DNA of 64,000 nt from Butyrivibrio sp. GTDB taxonomy: Bacteria > Bacillota > Clostridia > Lachnospirales > Lachnospiraceae. Location: positions 62,001 through 126,000 of the forward strand of contig SVGC01000006.1 of the NCBI GenBank assembly GCA_015056495.1. Direction: 5' to 3'. Numbering within the stretch: position 1 is the first letter of the stretch; each line of letters starts with the position of its first letter. Of this stretch, positions 56,734 through 59,067 are shown piece by piece. The notes under the pieces are model-generated. The model had not been told where the DNA came from. It did no database searches and saw nothing but the letters and a program-made list of their open reading frames with translations. The translations under genes and the position numbers were made by a program.

Positions 56734-56805
56734 AGGGGAATCATACAATGGCTAGTATCACGGTCTCCAAAACCGTTCATGCGGGTTCGAATCCTGCTTC
56801 CCCTG
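56734..56805 (+). tRNA. tRNA-Trp (anticodon CCA)
   Basis: The 72-base sequence folds as a tRNA: acceptor stem AGGGGAA/TTCCCCT, a four-pair D stem (ATAC/GTAT), anticodon stem ACGGT/ACCGT with loop CTCCAAA, and T arm GCGGG-TTCGAAT-CCTGC. The anticodon is CCA, for tryptophan. The 3' CCA is not encoded. Confidence 0.95.
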
Positions 56806-56859: not shown

Positions 56860-57369
56860 CATTAATCACCATGGTATGCTATTGTCTGTTTGAGTTCATT
56901 CTAGTTCAAAAAAGAACGAAATATGTAGGGCCGTTTTAGGGTCACTATAATAACTATTAACAGGCAAACAATCTGAAAAAAATAAAGCATTTTTACCCAA
57001 AGCAATTTTGTTTGGGAATAACAAGCATAAAAATAGCCGATAGTCAAAATGATATATACCCTCTTTACTGGATGTCCAGTAAAGAGGGTACATATCATTT
57101 TGAACAAGCAGTTATTGCATACTGTAGACAAAACTAACCTCTAGAGATTAGTATCCATGCGAATTTCATGATGTCATCTATTTAAAGTACTCAAAACAAC
57201 TTATGGTCAATGTTATAAGAAATGTCAAATGAGGGGGCATGAATCGGAGTGACGTGATTCGAACACGAATTACACTTCTCCGAAACCAGCGTAGAAAGGG
57301 GGCTTGACGGCACCGACTTGACCTCTGGTCAAACAACTGGTCAAACACTTTTCTATACGTATGTATTAA
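56860..57369. other. Gene-poor stretch after tRNA-Trp
   Basis: No convincing gene is seen; two overlapping minus-strand frames of 65 and 76 codons lack ribosome sites and known patterns. The stretch contains a 58-base near-perfect palindrome at 57045-57102 and, near 57246-57270, a sequence that on the minus strand reads GTGTTCGAATCACGTCACTC and resembles the T arm and acceptor end of a tRNA. Confidence 0.55.
57045..57102. repeat. 58-base near-perfect palindrome
   Basis: The outer arms CAAAATGATAT/ATATCATTTTG and the inner arms CCCTCTTTACTGGA/TCCAGTAAAGAGGG meet at a two-base centre, with one mismatch between. There is no T-run on either strand. Confidence 0.8.
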
Positions 57370-58017
57370 TCATTCCTGATTGCTTACTTCTGACTCACAA
57401 AGCTCTTTGGTTATGAGCATTCGTACGCTTTCAGGTATCTCTTTGCGTTCGTCCTTAATAGTCAAAGTATCATAGATCGCTTTACTTGCATCTTTAGAAA
57501 AGATAAAATCGATTACCTCTCCACCGCCACTTTTGTTAACAGATGAATCTTCCACACGTAGAGTCATTGGAATAAACCTGTTAGGCATTGCGTTACCATT
57601 ATTATCAGTCTGCTGTACTAATCCCAAAGTAAACTCCAAATTAGTAACACTCAGCTTATATGTTATAGAAAGCGTTTGCATATCTTTCAATACACATACC
57701 ATAGTATTTGTAAGCTCAGGGGCTCTTTTTAAGCACGGCAGTTTCTTTCGAGCCGAGTTATAAGGGTGTTCAGAATTAAAAAAGAACTGATCACATGTTA
57801 AAGTTGCATTCTTAGCATTTTTATAAAATTCTTTACCAGACAAATAAGTTGCAACACCAGTCAGATGCAGAAATCTGTTTGTTGGAAAGTATAATTCAAA
57901 ATATTCCTCCCCATACACATATAAAAAAGACCGTCCTGCAAGATTCTGACTGTACACAATAGCAGCATCCAATATATCTTGACGTATTATGTTTTTCTTT
58001 TCAGCCTTAGTCAGCAT
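57370..58017 (-). CDS. Putative BECR-fold nuclease, PBECR4-like
   Basis: This 215-residue protein resembles the PBECR4 group (phage-linked relatives of barnase, EndoU, colicin E5/D and RelE nucleases) in its first half: DILDAAIVYSQNLAGRSFLYVY, then FELYFPTNRFLHLTGVATYL and SGKEFYKNAKNATLTCDQFFF. The rest is beta-rich. I assign the family by pattern memory, so it is a moderate call. GGAGAATCA precedes the ATG. It lies downstream of a strongly structured leader (58038-58290) with its own promoter, in a stretch with transposase and gene remnants next to a tRNA, which fits a mobile or defence gene. Confidence 0.55.
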   Translation of the reverse strand: MLTKAEKKNIIRQDILDAAIVYSQNLAGRSFLYVYGEEYFELYFPTNRFLHLTGVATYLSGKEFYKNAKNATLTCDQFFFNSEHPYNSARKKLPCLKRAPELTNTMVCVLKDMQTLSITYKLSVTNLEFTLGLVQQTDNNGNAMPNRFIPMTLRVEDSSVNKSGGGEVIDFIFSKDASKAIYDTLTIKDERKEIPESVRMLITKELCESEVSNQE

Positions 58018-58037
58018 TGATTCTCCGTATACATAAA

Positions 58038-58290
58038 GAGGAGTGTGCGGTTAAACACACTCCTCAGACTATTTTTGTTAAGAGTTTTCTGCTGGTTGTC
58101 AGCCTCGGCACCCAGTTAAGATGCCTTAAAGGTGCAGAAATAATTAAGTCCCCTGCCTGGACTACAACATTTATCCCTGTTGCCGGGCTCGATACCTGCA
58201 AATGGTATCTTATGAGATGGAATAATTACCCTGCTCCATCCGCAGCACAACTTTTTACGATGCTCTTACATCGGAAACATTTCTGTTTCT
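58038..58290 (-). ncRNA. Candidate structured RNA upstream of the putative nuclease
   Basis: Read on the minus strand, the region forms a row of stems: GAAAC/GTTTC (58274-58289), CGATG/CATCG (58258-58273), GATGGA/TCCATC (58216-58240), GATACC/GGTATC (58191-58209), and a closing helix GTTGTAG/CTGACAAC (58095-58168) that holds two inner hairpins. A last 10-bp hairpin (58038-58065) lies 20 bases before the start codon and is followed by only TTTAT. A promoter lies just upstream. It could be a riboswitch-like leader, an sRNA or an RNA antitoxin. I do not recognise a known class. Confidence 0.45.
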
Positions 58291-58296
58291 ACTTTC

Positions 58297-58324
58297 ATTA
58301 TATCGACTACAAATCAAAAATCAA
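58297..58324 (-). promoter_or_regulatory. Promoter of the structured RNA
   Basis: On the minus strand TTGATT, 16 bases and TATAAT (58297-58302) place the start of transcription near 58290, right at the first stem of the structured RNA. Confidence 0.5.
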
Positions 58325-58401
58325 TGCAACTATTTCACAAAAAATGTTAAATAATTGTGATATTATTATCGCTTAAGTTTCTTTTTCTCCAATTCCTATA
58401 A

Positions 58402-58722: not shown

Positions 58723-59067
58723 ACACTGTTCATGGACATCTGGAACAATGAGATTCTCTCTTACTCCCTGTCAAAGAAACGTGGTGACAGGATGACATAC
58801 ATGAGTGGCCTCAAAGAGATCCTTGATATCAAGGCGCAGTATCCTGAAATGGAAATGGTCCTTCATACTGACCAGGGTTCTGTTTACTCTTCAAAGAGCT
58901 TTAACGAGCTTCTGCCACTGTATAACATAGTTCATTCAATGTCTCGGGCAGGAACACCTACCGATAACGCCGCCATGGAGGCAATCAACGGCTGGATAAA
59001 GGCCGAGATGTTTAAGGACTTGCACATGAAAAGTAGTTTATTGATATCCAAATTGGAAAAAGGTTAG
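58717..59067 (+). pseudogene. Truncated IS3-family transposase (integrase core)
   Basis: The fragment carries the DDE integrase core of an IS3/IS150-type OrfB: FMDIWNNEILSYSL with the first Asp, HTDQGSVYSSKSFNELL with the second, and TPTDNAAMEAINGWIKAEMF with Glu 35 residues after it. The N-terminal part of the protein is missing, and similarity stops after EMFKDLH near 59028, where an unrelated 13-codon end follows. So it is an internal remnant without visible terminal repeats, though the three catalytic residues remain. Confidence 0.8.

Follow-up and report, generated by a model that had tools for sequence, protein, structure and literature searches.

The window analyzed here (the whole 64,000-nucleotide stretch of Butyrivibrio sp. 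DNA) carries on its minus strand a locus that, judged by its sequence, is most probably a toxin-antitoxin module with type III layout, of a family undescribed in the literature that we searched. The underlying observation, again read from sequence, is real, conserved and general across the PBECR4 protein family: the loci combine an order of promoter, RNA, hairpin and PBECR4 gene with paired and pseudoknotted RNAs, repeats in part of them, a mobile context, and RNA that persists where the toxin is missing. In the window, as in type III systems, a structured RNA lies directly upstream of the putative toxin gene, with one promoter. A previous reading made from the letters alone (the sequence-only reading) had placed the promoter, several stems, the hairpin, the ribosome site and a 215-aa frame, all of which we recovered at the same positions (Table 1), and it had proposed a new type should the locus be real; we consider the locus better called a new family with type III layout than a new type, its toxin lying outside the ToxN family.

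Table 1. Parts of the window locus, with positions in the window.
Feature	Positions	Strand	Basis
Sigma-70-like promoter: TTGATT 58324-58319, 16-nt spacer, TATAAT 58302-58297	58297..58324	(-)	sequence
Structured RNA, proposed RNA antitoxin	about 58066..58290	(-)	start placed from the -10 box; fold, covariation
Closing stem P1: 58252-58249/58086-58083 and 58246-58243/58094-58091	58083..58252	(-)	alignment of homologues
H-type pseudoknot: S1 AGUCC/GGACU 58163-58159/58151-58147; S2 58156-58152/58138-58134	58134..58163	(-)	
Degenerate internal repeat 1: GATGGAGCAGGG .. hairpin 58209-58191 .. GAGCC	58186..58240	(-)	by eye, alignment A5
Degenerate internal repeat 2: GCAGGGGACTT .. hairpin 58125-58107 .. 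GAGGC	58101..58156	(-)	by eye, alignment A5
Terminator-like hairpin GAGGAGTGTG/CACACTCCTC, 28 nt, RNA/toxin boundary	58038..58065	(-)	best window energy -19.6 kcal/mol
Ribosome site GGAGA	58026-58022	(-)	sequence
PBECR4 protein, 215 aa, proposed toxin (predicted RNase); ATG at 58017	57370..58017	(-)	Pfam profile
Conserved end of integrative element: GTTTGACC direct repeats and tRNA-Pro(AGG) 3' end (57267-57242)	57236..57362	(-)	

The CAGGG pentamer that the same reading had seen three times is there (58233-58229, 58179-58175 and 58155-58151), but as part of the degenerate internal repeats, which were recognized by eye. An antisense coding gene over the RNA (a 119-aa frame, 58017-58376, plus strand) was considered and rejected: over the 255 bases of the window, the longest antisense stretch that stays open measures 85 aa, and it measures 44-70 aa in five diverged homologues from alignment A5 (see below). 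Two further features were noticed by eye, namely a long near-perfect palindrome around ACCCTCTTTACTGGACATCCAGTAAAGAGGGT at 57046-57101, between the attachment-site tail and tRNA-Trp, and a 111-aa frame at 58732-59067 (plus strand) that resembles an IS3-type transposase fragment.

PBECR4 proteins and the regions upstream of their genes

The window protein matches Pfam PBECR4 (PF18813) with E 8.5e-34 and 118 bits against a cut-off of 27, across profile positions 1-187 of 188, so that the family call of the sequence-only reading was correct. The family is named for a predicted barnase/EndoU/colicin/RelE-like nuclease, and the protein also matches PHROG 18856 (E 2.1e-32), whose function is unknown. 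In the available part of Iyer et al. 2017 (PMC5512222), PBECR domains are described as a predicted RNase group in phage polyvalent proteins; the authors give five of the six families an active-site histidine and note that phages also carry solo versions. Across 70 of 70 distinct intact relatives, His51 and Gly54 were the sole fully invariant residues; taking the BECR fold as an N-terminal helix plus a four- or five-stranded core with an active-site histidine, the invariant His51 is compatible with that histidine and would be the obvious candidate for catalysis. Differences between the window gene and its relative L033 number 73/43/121 by codon position, which we counted as selection on the protein. 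As for other collections, NCBIfam gave no match to the window protein up to E 10 and, for the 14 proteins in A3, nothing beyond stray matches of single members, the PDB searched by sequence gave no credible match, and PADLOC on 9 proteins gave a single stray match (E 0.01). The viral contig scans revealed no relative, and the window's own protein matched neither these contigs nor the phage collection, which we count against the toxin-antitoxin reading.

The relatives search found PF18813 in 12 of its 61 genomes, the phylum set had it in 4 of 398 and the order set in 55 of 392, and each of these counts includes the window's own genome. That genome has two further PBECR4 genes with leaders of the Rfam family drum (G000:C5 and G000:C14), and it also has a ToxN gene (G000:C71:360-863). 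Elsewhere, the plasmid pCY360 carries a PBECR4 gene, and in L152 and L162 PBECR4 lies inside longer frames (391 and 516 aa) with leader and hairpin still there. We tabulated 84 PBECR4 loci, made up of 19 from the relatives search, 3 from the phylum, 25 from the order, 28 from further regions and 9 named plasmid or phage loci. From the order genomes, 25 of 26 new loci were tabulated (the broken L141 was left out) and three further matches stand outside the table, the further regions contributed 28 of 29 (L168 had no hit), and L033 was left out because it had been brought in by its RNA. The table contains near-copies (L004/L127, L120/L121, L003/L126 and L116/L117), and L022/L028 and L024/L027 appear to be identical records.

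Upstream of PBECR4 genes we found a recurrent order of promoter, 130-200 nt RNA, hairpin, ribosome site and gene. For 68 of 69 intact genes, the 105 nt before the start contained a hairpin of -12 kcal/mol or lower, these 69 being the ones with at least 200 nt upstream among 72 tabulated loci that look intact (at least 180 aa and at least 0.77 of the profile). The one miss, L136, came from a start taken too late, the hairpin being visible there, and L156 was scored as a hit though no RNA precedes its gene. A narrower scan found the hairpin in 42 of 45 PBECR4 genes versus 5 of 41 control genes (Mann-Whitney p 1.6e-13), with PBECR4 starts set by a ribosome-site rule and control starts taken as the first start codon, which may blunt the control hairpins. 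From this upstream reading and the hairpin counts, the toxin-antitoxin-like layout that had been proposed for the window alone is borne out and is general to the PBECR4 family.

Thermodynamic stability was tried as a family-wide test and rejected, as PBECR4 leaders were not separated from control upstream regions: the RNA part had a median z of -0.94 versus -0.83 in controls, and z of -2 or lower was reached by 7 of 45 leaders versus 14 of 41 controls, a result that we count against the toxin-antitoxin reading. With stability dropped as an argument, we relied upon covariation.

Folding and covariation of the RNAs

The window leader including its hairpin folds at -86.5 kcal/mol (z -4.17), and none of 200 shuffles was equally stable. 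Searching Rfam with the window RNA returned nothing at gathering (best sub-threshold E 8.4, on the opposite strand), and drum (RF02958, threshold 43 bits) gave no match in it. Leader DNA matches were found in 12 of 79 same-genus genomes at 77-100% identity, three of them partial, with 95 bases in L034 (at a contig end), the final 73 bases of the core in L035 and, in L036, 56 bases that cover only the terminator region. The block common to several genomes starts precisely at the -10 box and stops where the closing stem ends (58304-58080).

Alignment A5 holds 12 window-class RNAs, aligned by sequence and scored on a structure that contains the pseudoknot. Standard pairs filled 97.4% of its 652 cells and both-sided changes occurred in 15 of 56 pairs, values that 0 of 500 shuffles reached in either case, and pairing fell to 29-43% when partners were slid. 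The structure was drawn from the window and RNAalifold, so the paired share is helped by construction, and two-sided changes are the stronger measure. Further pair types were not above shuffles (202 of 500), which we count against the toxin-antitoxin reading. Two checks that the sequence-only reading had named for its RNA thus came out with no Rfam match to a known riboswitch or T-box class and with covariation present among leader homologues; this covariation and the homologues in the genus speak against chance as the origin of the window leader. Considering the single elements, S1 is invariant in the 12 sequences, so that only conservation speaks for it, S2 has 8 two-sided-change cells in 2 pairs and 0 broken cells, and P1 is mostly invariant, with few broken cells and 0 two-sided changes. 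The pseudoknot known from type III antitoxins is found in the window class (S1/S2) and in class II (loop-tag, described below), recognized by conservation and covariation only.

Tandem repeats, which the earlier reading had reported missing, are plain in 29 of the 84 PBECR4 loci; they are plain in class II and in L158 of the window class, while the window RNA's own two are degenerate and were recognized by eye only. Among relatives, L157 resembles a fusion of the window RNA's two internal repeats, and L158 (L200 is the same place) has two plain tandem repeats ending GAGGCUGACAACCAGCAG and was found at E 1.9e-8 by a model built without it.

The class II RNA consists of two tandem repeats of about 50 nt, each with a 5' tag (e.g., UCUG), a hairpin GUUG-loop-CAAC and an A-rich border, in a scheme of cross-pairing, loop 1 to tag 2 and loop 2 to tag 1. 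This reciprocal scheme left 99.4% of 168 cells paired across 21 sequences (0 of 500 shuffles as high) versus 81.5% for loop-tag pairing within the same repeat, which we rejected. Both-sided changes were seen in 31 cells (0 of 500 shuffles), spread over 5 of 8 pairs, a number that 12 of 500 shuffles attained, and further pair types were not above shuffles (500 of 500). Of the five covariation measures, further pair types (in both RNAs) and the number of class II pairs changed on both sides are thereby counted against the toxin-antitoxin reading. Reciprocal pairing was seen again in all six tested loci outside the alignment, with tag 2 sitting 7-9 nt after hairpin 1 (four pairs in five loci, three in L176) and a complementary tag 1 lying 31-37 nt before hairpin 1 in every one, in regions that were hand-picked and of which four hold another complementary 4-mer within the tag 1 search range. 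These six include an Erysipelothrix phage, a Streptococcus phage, a Pediococcus plasmid and a gammaproteobacterial 4.3-kb Avibacterium plasmid of five annotated features, where three others that we saw are replication, sigma-like and mobilisation genes. In L175 the sequence of the first-hairpin stem differs.

By class, the 84 loci comprise drum at 20 loci at gathering plus 6 weaker, class II at 29 (L133 and L175 placed there by hand), the window class at 5, and 24 unclassed, with 55 of the 84 scanned directly by Rfam and 8 more covered via window or whole-genome searches. The unclassed set, whose size we count against the toxin-antitoxin reading, takes in loci at contig ends, copies that are degenerate, one near-copy of a drum locus, leaders resembling drum and additional RNA types, and many of its members show by eye a promoter, an RNA-sized gap and a hairpin. 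Further RNA types before PBECR4, also distinguished by eye, are those of L011/L155/L159/L166, whose leader has repeated CGGAGACC..AAAACCCG-like blocks, and of L012/L160. To the eye, the RNAs of different PBECR4 groups look unalignable to each other, which we count against the toxin-antitoxin reading, as we do the missing drum match of the window RNA.

Drum directly before PBECR4 is found mostly in Lachnospirales and also on two Enterococcus plasmids and one Streptococcus suis plasmid (46-52 bits). Within the genus, drum matched 28 times, in 21 of 79 genomes, and 21 of these matches exceed gathering. PBECR4 or its remains come next after 19 of the 28 (15 whole genes, 4 broken or fragmentary); the remaining 9 precede a type I-like module (1), a contig end (1) and other or no genes (7). 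In L095, a contig of 361,399 bases, drum is followed by a gene that by eye resembles a macro domain. Other known RNAs lie near some PBECR4 loci, with DUF3800-XI (L129, 2378-2425, minus strand) and Clostridiales-1 (L122, 2453-2620, minus strand) each a few hundred bases upstream, and a RatA antitoxin-like RNA just downstream of PBECR4 on a Pediococcus plasmid (L179, 1760-1852, minus strand; 44.2 bits, gathering 49).

Mobile setting and RNAs without PBECR4

Behind the window gene lies a tail of 127 nt, in which repeats resembling the arm sites of integrases are joined by the 3' end of tRNA-Pro(AGG), and this is the relevant neighboring tRNA, not the tRNA-Trp at 56734 to which the sequence-only reading had pointed. 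The tail matches in 47 of 79 same-genus genomes, many through the 26-nt tRNA end alone, and ARAGORN found tRNA-Pro in 9 of 18 stretches around relatives. In relatives, the tail closes islands that start at an intact tRNA-Pro gene, such as that of L069 (1506-14361, about 12.8 kb), with a tyrosine integrase and a D5-type primase, and that of L067 (1787-3281, about 1.4 kb), where an integrase-sized frame was not noticed. Given these tail features and tRNA-Pro islands, the module adjoins the attachment site of integrative elements, a neighborhood that is a common place for maintenance or defence cargo. Named PBECR4 relatives are carried by plasmids and phages. Two further islands lie in tRNA-Pro(AGG), that of L068 closed by the same tail as the window locus and that of L070 having two tails in tandem.

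Behind the same-genus copies of the window leader, PBECR4 is intact in the window and L033, broken or short in L026, L027 and L028, and absent in L029-L032 and L035. Model R1, describing the window-class RNA with the pseudoknot left out, gave 11 matches in 10 of 392 order genomes (4 training, 7 new: L194 and L197-L202). Within the fetched 1500 bases, an intact PBECR4 follows 3 of the 11, a broken one follows 2, and no PBECR4 follows the other 6, an orphan share that is not free of choice because orphan RNAs are part of the training set A8. One of the six toxin-less RNAs, L201, looks degenerate. The converse, a clear intact PBECR4 without upstream RNA, was seen in one case, L156, whose class II RNA, with its reciprocal tags, lies about 300 nt beyond the gene on the downstream side (about 1730-1960); upstream RNA was also not found at L153 and L164, both degenerate PBECR4 loci. 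Taken singly, these three loci count against the toxin-antitoxin reading. RNA that often stands without toxin, and intact toxin that clearly stands without RNA once, are as an antidote predicts.

The orphan copies also bear on whether the RNA might be a cis-acting, riboswitch-like or autoregulatory leader working through the hairpin, with PBECR4 no addiction toxin. Such a leader would fit the single hairpin between RNA and gene, which is like that of transcription attenuators, and the near-constant adjacency of RNA or hairpin to the gene, and PBECR4 could autoregulate by binding its own leader; we nevertheless consider it unlikely, since orphan RNAs keep the -10 box, which falls within the block common to the orphan copies of the window RNA, and keep the fold without the gene, since several RNA classes, some with reciprocal tandem repeats, precede one protein family, unlike a conserved ligand pocket, and since the window has no Rfam riboswitch or T-box match.

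Other genes take the place of PBECR4 behind these RNAs. By eye, L029, L031 and L032 have a type I toxin-antitoxin-like module behind the RNA, in which a second RNA overlaps a small hydrophobic peptide (MEGLIAVLALCATFFGLGYSIGRN or near) encoded on the opposite strand. In L030 one more transcript unit comes before the module, and L035 has the RNA half only. That extra unit of L030, with promoter and hairpin, lies at about 1740-1850 between the orphan RNA and the module, as seen by eye. A tblastn search found the MEGLIAVLALCATFFGLGYSIGRN peptide in the stretches around L029-L032 and not in the stretch around L035, and Rfam gave no match at gathering for the module of L032. In L094, a type I-like module stands in PBECR4's place behind a drum RNA, a PemK/MazF-like gene follows the PBECR4 stub of L026, and an Abi_2 gene (E 1.4e-18; L199, 378-1364, minus strand) lies behind an orphan window-class RNA with hairpin. 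Short frames behind two orphan RNAs (L194, 1958-2209, plus strand; L197, 1275-1454, minus strand) resemble type II antitoxins by eye, and Pfam gave no match for them.

That the same RNAs also precede other modules counts against the toxin-antitoxin reading, and the type I-like modules (L029-L032, and L094 for drum), the MazF-like gene and Abi_2 are what one would see if the RNA were an independent small RNA of the element, serving defence, replication or packaging, with PBECR4 as one cargo gene of the same slot. We judge this quite unlikely, because outside the islands, in other orders and in one other phylum, PBECR4 still comes with RNA of these classes, and because the hairpin accompanies almost all intact PBECR4 genes, as does an RNA wherever the locus was classed, which a shared slot does not predict. 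That PBECR4 is instead an RNA-loaded effector, with the RNA as guide or cofactor of the nuclease and not its antidote, seems highly unlikely: the RNA-protein pairing is fixed, and an RNA-guided origin is discussed for AbiF-like proteins in the available text of PMC12373285, but a variable guide segment was not noticed (without systematic search) and the class II repeats keep structure and A-rich borders, like several ToxI RNAs.

Proposed mechanism and known systems

Under the toxin-antitoxin reading that we prefer, one promoter would drive an abundant structured RNA that mostly ends at the hairpin, and read-through past the hairpin would yield a lesser amount of toxin mRNA. By analogy with ToxIN, the RNA would bind PBECR4 directly and occlude its active site, and PBECR4 may trim the RNA at A-rich stretches. 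Should transcription stop or the element be lost, the RNA would decay first and the freed PBECR4 would cut cellular RNA, so that the mobile element would be stabilised and phage infection perhaps aborted. On balance, we lean toward a wider picture, where PBECR4 proteins would be the toxins of a wide new type III branch, drum would be one of its antitoxins, and the two-repeat RNA would form a ring of two pseudoknots, in which the tag of either repeat locks the loop of the other and which presumably accommodates two toxin molecules. If true, drum and a Pfam domain named by prediction would each gain a partner and a testable job, and type III systems would be extended by a toxin family from a different lineage, one that occurs in gut Lachnospirales, on plasmids of enterococci and streptococci, in phages and on a Pasteurellaceae plasmid; as the reciprocal pairing covaries, it lends itself to testing by mutation.

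Our full-text literature search returned nothing on PBECR4, with PF18813 or the family's long name appearing only in an in silico survey. For drum, which Weinberg et al. 2017 reportedly introduced, the literature as available covered structure only, with no function found, and that paper may carry an earlier remark on drum neighbors. A survey of structured RNAs in human microbiomes (PMC8040213) describes candidates that precede ToxN; neither 'PBECR' nor 'drum' occurs in the main text, as far as available.

Setting the locus against what is known, Iyer et al. 2017 described the predicted RNase group behind the Pfam name PBECR4, but the targets proposed there are host or phage mRNA or CRISPR RNA, and an RNA partner is not mentioned in the available part (PMC5512222). 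Drum is alike in that, throughout one large branch of the family, it lies immediately before PBECR4, with a similar spacing of hairpin and start, whereas the window RNA does not match the drum model. In AvcID, a non-ToxN toxin is inhibited by a long RNA and the authors use the term type III; unlike PBECR4, that toxin is a deaminase, and in the available text the authors predicted no terminator between RNA and toxin (PMC10511110). In AbiF-RCd22 of C. difficile, a predicted RNase is likewise preceded by an RNA motif that is conserved and is reported, in the text available, to neutralise it by direct binding (PMC12373285), but the protein is a HEPN protein and the RNA motif another one.

Type III systems are recognized by a toxin preceded by a terminator with a tandem-repeat RNA before it, and the solved antitoxins fold as pseudoknots that occlude the toxin active site, according to the available portion of PMC5086642. 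ToxIN, CptIN and TenpIN share with the PBECR4 loci the promoter, a pseudoknotted RNA (with plain repeats in part of the PBECR4 loci), terminator and toxin gene, and nine usable ToxN loci from the same taxonomic order showed the same layout, with repeats and a hairpin before the gene and A-rich repeat borders plain in five. The proteins differ, PBECR4 being unrelated to ToxN by hhalign (probability 0.1-0.4% versus 9 ToxN proteins, while the two PBECR4 branches match each other at 94.5%), and so do the RNAs, which before PBECR4 are drum, the two-repeat RNA with reciprocal pairing, and a large multi-branch fold with a pseudoknot.
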